Of a stretch of DNA of 56,316 bases, positions 29,643 through 33,649 are shown piece by piece. The stretch lies in NCBI GenBank assembly GCA_938002655.1, contig CALLAC010000032.1:1-56316 (forward strand). The letters are read 5' to 3'. Source of the DNA: an uncultured Cytophagales bacterium (GTDB taxonomy: Bacteria; Bacteroidota; Bacteroidia; Cytophagales; Thermonemataceae). Made by a program: the position numbers and the translations under genes. The notes under the pieces were generated by a model that saw only the letters and a program-made list of their open reading frames with translations, did not search any database and was not told where the DNA came from. Positions within the stretch are counted from its first letter, which is position 1. The number at the start of each line of letters is the position of its first letter.

Positions 29643-32108
29643 TTACTCACTATAAAATACTCTTTTTACTCTTTCGCTAATGTTTGTCAGAATTTCATAG
29701 GGAATAGTACCTATTGCTTTGGCAAGAGTTTGGATAGTATGTGTTTCATCAAAAATAATAACCTCATCATCCACTTGGGCATCAGGCACCTCCGAAAGGT
29801 CTATCATCGTCATATCCATACATATATTGCCAATGATAGGCACCAATTTGCCCCGTACTTTCACCTTACCTACTCCATTACTGAAAGCTCGGCTCAAGCC
29901 ATCAGCATAACCAATAGCAATGATACCAATACGACTTTTCTTGGTTACTTTTGCTCTTCTACCATACCCTACGGTATCATTTTTAGAAATGGTTTTGATT
30001 TGAGAAATCACAGTTTTCAGGCGGCTAATTGCTTGTAAATTTCCTTGAAATTTTCCCCCAGCCTCTACTCCATACAAGCCAATTCCTAAACGTACCATAT
30101 CCATTTGATACTCGGGGAAACGCACTATGCCTGATGAATTGAGAATATGCTTCAAACACTTGTATGATAATTTTTTTTCAAAGATTTGCGTAATTTTCTG
30201 AAAAGTTTGGATTTGTTTGAGCGAAAAGTCGTCATGCAGTTCTTCATCGGCGGCGGCAAGATGACTCATAAATGAAAAAACTTTCAAAAAAGCTGTTTTT
30301 TGTAAAATACTAAGCAAAACATTAGCATCTTGCGGTTCAAAACCCAAACGTCGCATACCTGTATCAAATTCTAAATGAATTTTCAAGCTCAAATGCTCAT
30401 TTTCGCAGAAGCTTTTAAGTTTTTCCAAAATTTCAAAGCTATACACTACTGGCTCTAAATTGTATTCGGCAAGCAAAGAAAAACTCTCTTCCGAGGGGTT
30501 CATCACCATAATAGGCAAATGTATACCATTTTTTCGTAGTTTTACCCCTTCATCAGCATACGCTACTGCTAAATAATCTACCCTATGAAATTGTAAAAGA
30601 TTAGCAATTTCTACACTACCATTCCCATAAGCAAAAGCCTTTACCATCACCATTATTTTAGTTTCAGGCTTTAAGAAACTGCGGTAGAAATTTAGATTAT
30701 TTACAAGTGCATCAAGGCTGATTTCTAAGACGGTACGATGAGCCTTGTATTCTAATTTTTGTACAATTTTTTCAAAAGCATACTTTCTTGCTCCTTTGAT
30801 AAGGATAACACAATTGCGAAATTGCTGGAAAAATCCTTTGCTCAAAAACTCTTCGGTATCTTTGTAGAAAGCTGTCAGAGGAACATCTCGGAAAAGTTCT
30901 TGATGCTGTGAAATTTTATCTCCTATTCCAATAAAAAATCCGATTTTTTTGGAAACAACTAATTTGGCAACCTGCTGATAGAGCTTTTTACCGCTCAAAT
31001 CGCTTTCTAAAATATCAGAAAGAATAACTACTTTGGCAGGCTTTTGGTCTTGATTTGCCAAAAAATCTAGGGCAATTTGCAAGCCTGCAAGGTCGTTATT
31101 GTACGAATCATCAATGAGATAAGTTTGCTGAATACCTTGTTTGAGCTCCAAACGCATCGAAACAGGTTTCAGCAGGGTAAGTCGTTTGCTTATCTCCTGA
31201 ATAGAGATATTGAACTGAAAGTGCATTAAAACGGCACATAAAGCCATATTTTGCAAATAGGCTTCATCTTGAAAAGGCAATAGCTTGCTATTGAGCCTGC
31301 AGATGCGTTTATTTTCTTTTTGTATAAAACTGACAGGTTTTTGGCTTGTAGTAGCTTCGTAGTCCCAAAAAAATACTTGGCTTAGTGAATTTCTCTTGAT
31401 AAACTTATCAATAATTTTGGGAAAAATTTGGGCTGTATTTTCAGGCAAATACACTATGGGCGTGTTTTCAAAGAGCTTGAGCTTTTCTTCCAATTTTTCT
31501 TCTCTGCTTCTGAATCCTTCATCGTGGGCAGAGCCAAGATTTGTAAGCACACCAATAGTAGGTTGGATTACTTTTTGTAAATATTCCATCTCGCCTGCTT
31601 GCGAAATACCTGCCTCAAAAATACCCAAAGTATGTTCGGAACGCATCTGCCACACCGAAAGTGGCACACCTACCTGAGAATTAAAACTTTTAGGACTTCT
31701 GACAATATTGAACTCTTCGGATAAGAGTTGTGTGAGCCATTCTTTTACGATGGTTTTGCCATTACTCCCCGTAATTCCAATAACAGGATATTGAAATTTG
31801 CTTCGATGCCAAGATACAATTTTCTGAAAAGCCCGAACACTATTTTTTACTACTACATAATTGATACCCAACTCTCGAAACGGTAGAGCAAATTTTTCGT
31901 TTTCTATGATAAAGTTTCTCACACCTTTTTCATACGCTTCGGCAAGAAAATTATGCCCATCATGATTTTTCCCTCGAATAGCTACAAAAAGAGTATTTTC
32001 AGGAATAAATAGCTTACGGGTATCTACCGAAATATGTTCGATAAATACCAGAGGGGCTGTCTGCCAAAGGGGTACTTGAAGAATATTTTGAAGTTCAGAA
32101 AAAAGCAT
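29643..32108 (-). CDS. Bifunctional MurF ligase - alanine racemase
   Basis: An 821-residue fusion. The N-terminal half is MurF, which adds D-Ala-D-Ala to UDP-MurNAc-tripeptide. It has the Rossmann-like cap (FVAIRGKNHDGHNFLAEA), the ATP loop GITGSNGKT (111-119) and LTNLGSAHDEGF. The C-terminal half (about 455-821) is a PLP alanine racemase with the Schiff-base Lys490 in VMVKAFAYGNG, FDTGMRRLGF, VRLGIGLYGVEA and VGYGRRAKV. The fusion couples D-Ala supply to its use and is a known Bacteroidota arrangement. The MurF half lacks some strictly conserved-looking residues of enteric MurF, so its activity should not be assumed. The ATG at 32108 is chosen over a TTG 24 bases upstream. Confidence 0.93.
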   Translation of the reverse strand: MLFSELQNILQVPLWQTAPLVFIEHISVDTRKLFIPENTLFVAIRGKNHDGHNFLAEAYEKGVRNFIIENEKFALPFRELGINYVVVKNSVRAFQKIVSWHRSKFQYPVIGITGSNGKTIVKEWLTQLLSEEFNIVRSPKSFNSQVGVPLSVWQMRSEHTLGIFEAGISQAGEMEYLQKVIQPTIGVLTNLGSAHDEGFRSREEKLEEKLKLFENTPIVYLPENTAQIFPKIIDKFIKRNSLSQVFFWDYEATTSQKPVSFIQKENKRICRLNSKLLPFQDEAYLQNMALCAVLMHFQFNISIQEISKRLTLLKPVSMRLELKQGIQQTYLIDDSYNNDLAGLQIALDFLANQDQKPAKVVILSDILESDLSGKKLYQQVAKLVVSKKIGFFIGIGDKISQHQELFRDVPLTAFYKDTEEFLSKGFFQQFRNCVILIKGARKYAFEKIVQKLEYKAHRTVLEISLDALVNNLNFYRSFLKPETKIMVMVKAFAYGNGSVEIANLLQFHRVDYLAVAYADEGVKLRKNGIHLPIMVMNPSEESFSLLAEYNLEPVVYSFEILEKLKSFCENEHLSLKIHLEFDTGMRRLGFEPQDANVLLSILQKTAFLKVFSFMSHLAAADEELHDDFSLKQIQTFQKITQIFEKKLSYKCLKHILNSSGIVRFPEYQMDMVRLGIGLYGVEAGGKFQGNLQAISRLKTVISQIKTISKNDTVGYGRRAKVTKKSRIGIIAIGYADGLSRAFSNGVGKVKVRGKLVPIIGNICMDMTMIDLSEVPDAQVDDEVIIFDETHTIQTLAKAIGTIPYEILTNISERVKRVFYSE

Positions 32109-32225
32109 ATCGACAACTGATAAGTTGAACAAAAATAAAAAATCTTGTTGAATTTAATTTTTTTCTCGGTTATTTTTTGCTAAAATTGCACTATTCTCTA
32201 AATTTTCTTTTCAAAACAAACGTTT

Positions 32226-32999
32226 ATGCCTAAACCTCATGTTATTGCCATAGTAAATCAGAAAGGAGGCACAGGAAAAACTACTACCACAGTAAATCTA
32301 GGAAAAGCGATTGCCCAAATGGATAAAAAAGTGTTGCTGATAGATTTGGACCCACAAGGAAGTTTATCTTATTATTTGGGAGCCAATAGTAATGTATGGA
32401 GCATTGCCGATGTAATTTTAGAAGATATTTCTTTTCATAACGCCCTTATTCAACGAGAAGGTTTGCATATTATTCCTGCCGATGTAACCCTTGCCGATTT
32501 AGAACTTTCGCTTGTTAATTATCAAGGACGCGAGCATATCGTAAAACGAATGATTGAACAAAATGCCCAAGACTACGATTTTGTATTTTTAGATTGCTCT
32601 CCTTCACTTTCTATCCTGACTGTCAATGCTTTGGTAGCGGCTCATAGCGTTATAATACCTTTGCAAATGGAAGTACTAAGCATGCACGGCTTGGAGCTAA
32701 TGCTGGAAACCATTGAGCAAGTGAAAAAAACCGTTAATCCTAATCTGGAAATTATGGGCATTTTGGTACTAATGTACAACTCTCGCCGCAGAATTACGCA
32801 AGAAGTGTACAACCATATCAAAAAAACCTATAATTTTGTGCCTATTTTTCAGACTTTTATCCGAATGGATGTAAAGCTCGTAGAAGCCCCTTCTTTTGGA
32901 AAAAGTGTATTTGAGTACGCTCCTCAATCCAACGGAGCAGAAGATTACTTGGCTCTTGCCCAAGAAATAATAGAAAAAGTACAACCAAAAGCTGAATAA
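32226..32999 (+). CDS. ParA-family partitioning ATPase
   Basis: A 257-residue deviant-Walker ATPase. KGGTGKTT (13-20) has the signature Lys13, Walker A' is LLIDLDPQG, and Walker B is FVFLDCSPSL. The absence of an N-terminal HTH makes it a Soj/type Ib-like protein. ParA proteins form nucleoid-bound gradients that position chromosomes, plasmids, receptor clusters or organelles. No parB or Soj-partner gene is present. Instead a PAS-like protein gene starts 2 bases after the stop, suggesting a cargo-positioning system rather than chromosome segregation. It diverges from murF-alr. Confidence 0.9.
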   Translation: MPKPHVIAIVNQKGGTGKTTTTVNLGKAIAQMDKKVLLIDLDPQGSLSYYLGANSNVWSIADVILEDISFHNALIQREGLHIIPADVTLADLELSLVNYQGREHIVKRMIEQNAQDYDFVFLDCSPSLSILTVNALVAAHSVIIPLQMEVLSMHGLELMLETIEQVKKTVNPNLEIMGILVLMYNSRRRITQEVYNHIKKTYNFVPIFQTFIRMDVKLVEAPSFGKSVFEYAPQSNGAEDYLALAQEIIEKVQPKAE

Positions 33000-33001
33000 C
33001 C

Positions 33002-33649
33002 ATGGCATTAGGCGAAAATATCAAGCGTGAGCGAATGATACCTGTTCGCAATCGCATCGTGTATAATCGGTTGCAACAAGAATTAGAAGAACTTAAAGAT
33101 CAAAATCTTACACTTTCCGAACCCAATTATGATATTTCAGCTGCTTTAGAAAATTTAAGCAAATTTGAAGAAGAAAACGAGATTGCTCAAACTCATTCCA
33201 AGTCCAAAGTAGAGTTTTTTTCGCATATCAACGATATTTTAGAGCATTGCTTTATGGTTGCAGAGTTAGATAGCAGTAATTTACAAATTTTGAAAGCAAA
33301 CGAAATATTTTGCCAAGCCTTACAGATAACACCTACCGAACTACACGTTCGGTCTTTAAGAGAGTTTTTTGTCAAAGAAAAAACTACCGAGTGGGACACT
33401 TTTTGCGAAAAACTCAACAAAGGCGAAAGAGTGCAAACGATGCTTGAATTCTTACCCAAAAACGCTACCGAACAAGAAAAACTGATATGCTCTGCTACAC
33501 TGGTAAGCAAACCTGCTCAACAATCTACAATTTACATTCTCATTGCTCAAAATATTACTGCGGCAATAAGTGCCTACCGAAGCAATACTACCATTGAAAT
33601 AGATATTGATAAAAAACTGAAATCTGCCAAAATTATTGTCAAAATCTAA
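33002..33649 (+). CDS. PAS-like protein coupled to ParA, unknown function
   Basis: A 215-residue protein. The basic N-terminus, MALGENIKRERMIPVRNRIV, resembles the short Lys/Arg-rich peptides by which ParB, TlpT and McdB-type partners stimulate ParA ATPases. A coil follows (about 22-60). A PAS-like domain lies at about 68-190 (HINDILEHCFMVAELDSSNL, LKANEIFCQALQITPTELH), and a short C-terminal tail ends KSAKIIVKI. The gene is 2 bases from parA and must be translationally linked. Cargo and ligand are unknown. Its stop overlaps the stop of the small lipoprotein gene on the other strand. Confidence 0.7.
   Translation: MALGENIKRERMIPVRNRIVYNRLQQELEELKDQNLTLSEPNYDISAALENLSKFEEENEIAQTHSKSKVEFFSHINDILEHCFMVAELDSSNLQILKANEIFCQALQITPTELHVRSLREFFVKEKTTEWDTFCEKLNKGERVQTMLEFLPKNATEQEKLICSATLVSKPAQQSTIYILIAQNITAAISAYRSNTTIEIDIDKKLKSAKIIVKI

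Follow-up and report, generated by a model that had tools for sequence, protein, structure and literature searches.

The window analysed here is a stretch of 56,316 nucleotides from an uncultured Cytophagales bacterium (contig CALLAC010000032.1). It comprises two open reading frames for a ParA-family ATPase and a small partner protein, which lie 2 bases apart according to their coordinates, as the sequence-only reading of this DNA had described (Table 1). In the Pfam search the ParA matched PF13614 at 1.6e-54, and its nearest solved sequences were 8ray_B (2.2e-52) and 1wcv_1 (1.6e-49), so that by both comparisons it matches the ParAs of DNA segregation. Divergent from the ParA gene, positions 29643-32132 of the reverse strand encode a protein of 829 aa in which a Mur ligase middle domain is fused to an alanine racemase (Pfam).

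Table 1. Features of the gene pair in the window (residue numbers refer to the partner protein).
Feature	Positions	Strand	Remarks
ParA-family ATPase, tag-partner ParA subfamily	32226..32999	+	257 aa, Walker A KGGTGKTT, Pfam + tree
Tagged PAS protein, ParA partner	33002..33649	+	215 aa; conserved beside ParA in G395, G396, G397
N-terminal tag, residues 1-21 (MALGENIKRERMIPVRNRIVY), candidate ParA-binding/ATPase-stimulating peptide	33002..33064	+	basic; low-confidence in model
Linker, residues 22-78	33065..33235	+	acidic, mostly helical (model); least conserved in more distant genus pairs
PAS domain, residues 79-190	33236..33571	+	PAS_9 match, model, Foldseek
C-terminal tail, residues 191-215, candidate cargo-docking peptide (inference)	33572..33646	+	conserved; low-confidence in model

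The partner starts with a conserved tag, MALGxN-K---LIP. Its first 21 residues comprise 5 K/R compared to 2 D/E, with a calculated pI of 10.8, in agreement with the basic peptide proposed before; based on the low model confidence, this part of the protein is probably disordered. A PAS-like fold had also been proposed for the partner, and this assignment held. The best Pfam match was PAS_9 (E 2e-5), whose score of 25.2 bits is slightly below the curated cut-off of 27, and the 50 matches listed by Foldseek were nearly all PAS or LOV domains (best E 4.5e-7). A first AlphaFold run with the four sequences of the genus as rows gave a poor model (pLDDT 40.6). The model used results from a second run with 17 rows, which showed a mean pLDDT of 70.0 and block means of 75-89 for residues 81-190; since these rows include PAS domains of receptors, it is not independent of the PAS assumption.

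Insight into the probable origin of the partner comes from relatives in which the gene following ParA encodes a tagged chemoreceptor. In G398, a genome of the same family, this receptor has a length of 936 aa and contains three PAS stretches, a HAMP and the MCP signalling domain, in G418 it comprises 747 aa with two PAS domains, HAMP and MCP, and in G405 it comprises 1088 aa with an MCP match in the same frame. Downstream of ParA and the tagged MCP, G398 encodes CheW, a CheY-like receiver, CheB, CheA, a 220-aa protein, a GAF/PAS protein and CheR. The CheW, receiver, CheB, CheA and CheR assignments were each confirmed by Pfam, and the 220-aa protein showed no Pfam match at 1e-5. Genes resembling CheW, CheB and CheA, with an identical order, were read from the translations of G405 and G418, in G405 together with a CheR-like gene, and the CheW domains of both genomes were found by domain search. 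G400 carries a che-operon receptor with a degenerate tag, and its ParA of the same subfamily lies elsewhere.

The first 186-189 residues of the four partners of the genus show a collinear alignment with the tag, linker and first PAS domain of the tagged MCP of L122, with an identity of 24-27% over 188-193 columns. The sole match of the window partner in G398 at E<=0.001 was the tagged MCP gene (26%, E 1.5e-4). In the comparison that gave the L122 alignment, the untagged GAF/PAS protein of G398 also scored against the partners (4e-5), below five tagged MCPs. The E-values of this comparison were obtained with 12 hand-picked proteins, with composition correction and low-complexity masking switched off, and therefore provide a rank and not a proof; most identities between partners and MCPs were in the range of 20-27%, and PAS domains occur in many proteins. 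The kinship to the receptors is assumed because the alignment coincides with a matching tag, position and ParA, and the partner looks like a shortened chemoreceptor remnant comprising the part from the tag via the linker to the first PAS domain. Two possible sources of the tail were rejected. Alignments with the receptor linker following the PAS domain were no better than those of shuffled tails, and the first strand of a later PAS domain in L122 was unconvincing after 14 comparisons, with 4 of 300 shuffles scoring as high for the G396 tail and 13 of 300 for the window tail.

In 14 aligned partners, M1, A2, L3, G4 and N6 of the tag were invariant and K8 and I13 nearly so. A profile (HMM) of 14 rows comprising the tag alone was searched in 241 genomes of the order and showed matches in 38 of them at E<=0.05, one per genome. 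Five of these (G371, G440, G561, G573 and G580, E 0.008 to 0.047) were dropped, as their matches did not begin at the first tag column, and G400, G401 and G551 were kept despite E-values above 0.001; the gene of G400 had already been recognised as a che-operon receptor with a tag-like start. In 26 of the 33 remaining genomes, a ParA match is followed by the tagged gene at a distance of 11-347 bases, based on the best ParA row per genome (32 rows; G527 had none above 300 bits). Of the seven genomes with a ParA that is not adjacent, six have one of >300 bits elsewhere, while none was seen in G527. An MCP domain occurs in the same frame as the tag in 27 of the 33 genomes; this tally used 30 of 37 rows, leaving out six further rows of G405 and a second row of G401. 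The six tagged frames without MCP belong to the four genomes of the genus and to G527 and G539, and in the latter two the frame appears, from its coordinates, to run off the contig end.

A profile scan with the ParA alignment over named genomes, from which the best 80 loci were considered, extended this observation. At 18 of these 80 loci the tag pattern was found in the gene after ParA, and 13 of the 18 are long frames from Pontibacter, Rufibacter, Adhaeribacter, Ohtaekwangia and two MAGs; an MCP domain is present in all of these but one (12 of 13), and the remaining frame (L048) is cut by the contig end. The tagged protein of L046 comprises 275 aa with a CheW domain and is reminiscent of ParP, which is itself CheW-like. 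Four further tagged proteins of 182-209 aa (L045 6402-6989, L047 9309-9938, L051 10749-11345 and L057 10749-11297) have a STAS-like end, assigned for L045 and L047 by matches below the Pfam cut-off and for L051 and L057 by their similarity to these two. After each of them, receiver-, CheA- and CheW-like genes were read from the translations. The tag is therefore found on at least three kinds of chemosensory part, MCP, CheW and STAS-like proteins, and it is possible that the last of these represent a third kind of part addressed by ParA.

The tagged receptors of L044, L049, L050, L052, L053, L055, L056, L059 and L061, which originate from Pontibacter, Rufibacter and Adhaeribacter, have a length of 1431-1834 aa and combine many HAMP domains with an MCP tip, and no PAS family was listed for them at the thresholds used. 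The MAG titles of L047, L051, L057 and L060 name Planktophila, Chitinophaga pinensis, Chryseobacterium gleum and Bacteroides. These labels look wrong, as they do not fit the closeness of the ParA loci to each other or to Ohtaekwangia.

Compared to the relatives with a che operon, the genus of the window shows a reduction. The partner itself has no Pfam match to the MCP signalling domain (PF00015), which was found in none of the four genus genomes (completeness 92-99%) and in 15 of 39 genomes of the sample. PF01584, which occurs in CheW and CheA, was likewise found in 0/4 genus genomes and in 13/39 overall. The 220-aa protein of the che operon was found in none of the four, compared to three of eight genomes in the family. 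No copy of the operon-type CheB was seen in the genus; a CheB domain in a frame of ~200 aa remains in three of the four genomes, and G398, G400 and G401 have a like frame besides their operon copy. The genus retains ParA, the partner and, in shortened form, a relative of the GAF protein from the che operons of G398, G400 and G401 (G000:C1:219459-220568; L137 7453-8568). The gene of this relative follows that of the partner in G396 and has a different location in the remaining three genomes, and two hydrophobic N-terminal stretches of the protein were recognised by eye. Judged by its sequences, G399 (81% complete) shows a second reduction of the same system: its tagged protein (L155 6447-7505) comprises 352 aa with a diminished MCP domain and without a PAS match, and no CheW was found in the genome.

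The resemblance of the window ParA to DNA-segregation ParAs could point to a partition pair of a plasmid or the chromosome, in which the PAS protein would be an unusual centromere-binding protein. Some short partners of ParAs that are more distant in the tree may have a ribbon-helix-helix-like end (L043 and L054, by eye), and the partner in Pedobacter (L075) gave an RHH_10 match at E 0.027, below the cut-off. Against this reading, Pfam showed neither a ParB or HTH match nor any other DNA-binding domain in the window partner. With a parS consensus pattern, the whole window gave 3 matches at 3 mismatches, compared to a mean of 2.17 after shuffling, with zero inside the pair, and around the pair just short scattered repeats and no repeat cluster were observed. 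Neither component that defines ParABS, a ParB or other DNA-binding partner and parS, was thus found with the pair. The sequence-only reading had noted the lack of a visible parB or parS, had named a hidden HTH in the partner or a nearby parS cluster as counter-evidence, and had proposed to look for the chromosomal parABS elsewhere. The first point was borne out, no such counter-evidence appeared, and a ParA+ParB pair is located on another contig of the genome (G000:C8; ParB_N 7.4e-37, HTH_ParB 8.9e-36). The window pair is not the chromosome's own partition system. The ParA tree, comprising 46 sequences (33 hand-picked from the best 80 loci and 13 others), agrees with this. The window ParA lies inside a starred set of 19 rows (97/83), of which 15 have the tagged partner next door, three have the tag elsewhere in the genome and one is ungrouped. 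The 11 ParB-linked ParAs, including that of the window's own genome, stand apart (100/97 alone, 100/98 with four ungrouped rows), where ParB-linked means that the start of the next gene was read as ParB-like, with a Pfam test for the window's own genome only. Several long branches are flagged, so that the finer order is not to be trusted, and the tagged ParA rows are not shown to form one clade (four changes needed). Altogether, a role in DNA partition is regarded as highly improbable.

A different question is whether the pair has any present function at all, as the che parts searched for are missing in the genus and G399 illustrates how the tagged protein can erode; the pair could then be a decaying leftover of the lost operon. 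The conservation data speak against this already. In the window genome, G395, G396 and G397, i.e. in 4/4 genus genomes, the pair is present with both genes intact, which answers the check on gene-pair conservation that had been proposed. The identity across the genus is 88-98% for ParA and 53-85% for the partner, and the dN/dS of the window compared to G395 is 0.013 and 0.118, respectively; both genes are under purifying selection. In the more distant genus pairs, in which synonymous sites are near saturation, the partner is much more strongly conserved at its two ends than in between. For the window and G396, the identities amount to 20/21 in the tag and 21/25 in the tail, compared to 49/107 in the PAS domain and 20/53 in the linker. 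The tail is identical in 25/25 positions among G395, G397 and G396, with 21/25 to the window, and the tag is identical in 18 to 21 of 21 positions in all pairs. For the window and G395 the tail is not special, as its 4 differences in 25 residues (21/25) correspond to the highest dN/dS of all segments (0.232). Decay without function is consequently considered very unlikely. Somewhat less remote, though still unlikely, is the idea that nothing is positioned any more and that the PAS protein regulates the ParA ATPase in response to a ligand or to the redox state, with ParA acting on e.g. division or surface motility. The PAS domain is a sensor fold, and the output modules of chemoreceptors that were searched for are gone, which would be in line with such a regulator; the wider comparisons in the genus, however, showed the tag and the tail as the best conserved parts, and this fits an adaptor that links two binding partners better than a protein that only senses a ligand. 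When 395 genomes of the phylum were drawn, leaving aside the other genus members, no other short partner was found; besides the own genome, there were two matches (2e-4 and 4e-4), which lie in frames of 631 and 739 aa.

Among the known systems, the closest parallel is PpfA/TlpT of Rhodobacter sphaeroides. According to excerpts of PMC3964821, the nucleoid-associated ParA homologue PpfA positions a cytoplasmic cluster of chemoreceptors via its contact with the N-terminus of TlpT, which is thought to stimulate the PpfA ATPase as ParB does. In the excerpted part of a review from the Rhodobacter laboratory (PMC10924463), PpfA is described as spread over the chromosome and not dynamic, with a passive spacing, and an active ParB-like cycle is therefore not secure even for PpfA. 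PpfA is also reported there to associate with the nucleoid of E. coli. In the window, too, a ParA gene lies beside its partner without ParB, the conserved and charged N-terminus of the partner is a candidate for the corresponding contact and shares its tag with ParA-linked chemoreceptors, and relatives carry a tagged chemoreceptor as partner, in G398 inside a che operon, which is also the location of PpfA/TlpT in Rhodobacter. In contrast to TlpT, the partner is a protein of 215 aa with a single PAS domain and an extra conserved tail, and no MCP domain was found in it or in the four genus genomes, nor was PF01584 and thereby a CheW/CheA for an array found in these genomes. Because these parts were looked for and not found, the window pair is not a member of PpfA/TlpT as defined and is best called a che-less derivative, which probably works like PpfA/TlpT by analogy. 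The excerpt of the survey by Hamer et al. 2010 (PMC2829493) reports ppfA homologues in the che operons of 77 of 206 species; it covers species with che genes, whereas the genus of the window has no detectable MCP or CheW.

The sequence-only reading had assigned the pair to a McdAB/ParC-type system. The ParC side of this assignment is strengthened by the pairs in 4/4 genomes and by the tag and ParA subfamily shared with chemoreceptors, while PpfA/TlpT, and not McdAB, proved to be the closest parallel. As stated in the excerpt of PMC10241942, ParC/ParP of Vibrio and ParC of Halothiobacillus comprise a ParA-type ATPase for chemosensory clusters; the Vibrio arrays are sent to the polar landmark HubP, whereas no MCP or CheW domain was found in the window genus. 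The same excerpt gives a charged N-terminus of the partner as a general rule for ParA-type positioning ATPases, and McdA/McdB, which position carboxysomes, resemble the window pair in combining a ParA without ParB with a small partner of this kind. They differ in that the kinship of the window partner lies with tagged chemoreceptors, and this likeness, seen at the sequence level, argues against a membership in McdAB.

Altogether, we consider it likely that the window encodes a protein-positioning pair of the PpfA/TlpT type, which stems from a cytoplasmic chemoreceptor cluster and was retained after the loss of chemotaxis. This suggests that a machine for placing sensory clusters outlived its chemotaxis system. 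By analogy to the relatives, we infer nucleoid binding, ATPase stimulation, positioning and a cargo for the pair. ParA-ATP dimers would bind the nucleoid without sequence specificity, and the partner, perhaps dimeric via its helices and PAS domain, would contact ParA with its tag and stimulate ATP hydrolysis. In this way the partner and its load would be spaced along the nucleoid and divided between the daughter cells; this could involve a ParA gradient that moves or, as for PpfA, a passive spacing on a static ParA layer. In the ancestor, as pictured from G398, the tag would have belonged to a chemoreceptor with several PAS domains, whose gene stood together with those for CheW, a CheY-like receiver, CheB, CheA and CheR. 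In the genus, the receptor and kinase parts would have been lost, and the partner would have shrunk to tag, linker, one PAS domain and the conserved tail. The pair may now position a small PAS-centred assembly, in which the PAS domain may sense something, the tail would be the likeliest docking site for a cargo, and one candidate for a co-cargo is the GAF protein, which is encoded in the che operon of relatives. If this is true, a ParA positioning module can outlive its original cargo and be kept for another. The two genes with 472 residues would then form a small model system for protein positioning, and owing to its PAS domain it may be asked whether a signal could switch the positioning on or off.

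The tag looks like a portable ParA address label, since in named genomes it is carried also by proteins with a CheW or STAS-like domain. A more far-reaching reading, offered tentatively and judged possible rather than probable, is that the MALGxN tag is the portable address label of one ParA subfamily in Bacteroidota and recruits the protein that carries it to the nucleoid. The genus of the window would then have retained this system of labels and re-used it after the loss of chemotaxis, and the result would be a cytoplasmic PAS hub that is positioned on the nucleoid, with a new cargo on the conserved tail. If the main reading is right, the compact natural set of tagged receptors, CheW, STAS-like and PAS-only proteins offers a test bed for whether a tag of 14-20 residues alone assigns a cargo to ParA. 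The open-licence literature that was searched yielded no paper on ParA-tagged chemoreceptors of Bacteroidota, and a term search in the text of PMC7184735, on chemosensory evolution, found neither ParC nor ParP.

Short proteins were also observed near related ParAs in Elusimicrobia (starts MPIGKNVNLQDR / MAMGKNVNLKDR) and Pedobacter, namely at L043 2873-3205, L054 6527-6862, L069 10746-11003 and L075 10743-10997. Their ends appear ribbon-helix-helix-like by eye, and for the protein of L054 Pfam gave no ribbon-helix-helix match. As a hint from these proteins, the tag may have descended from adaptors of DNA partition.
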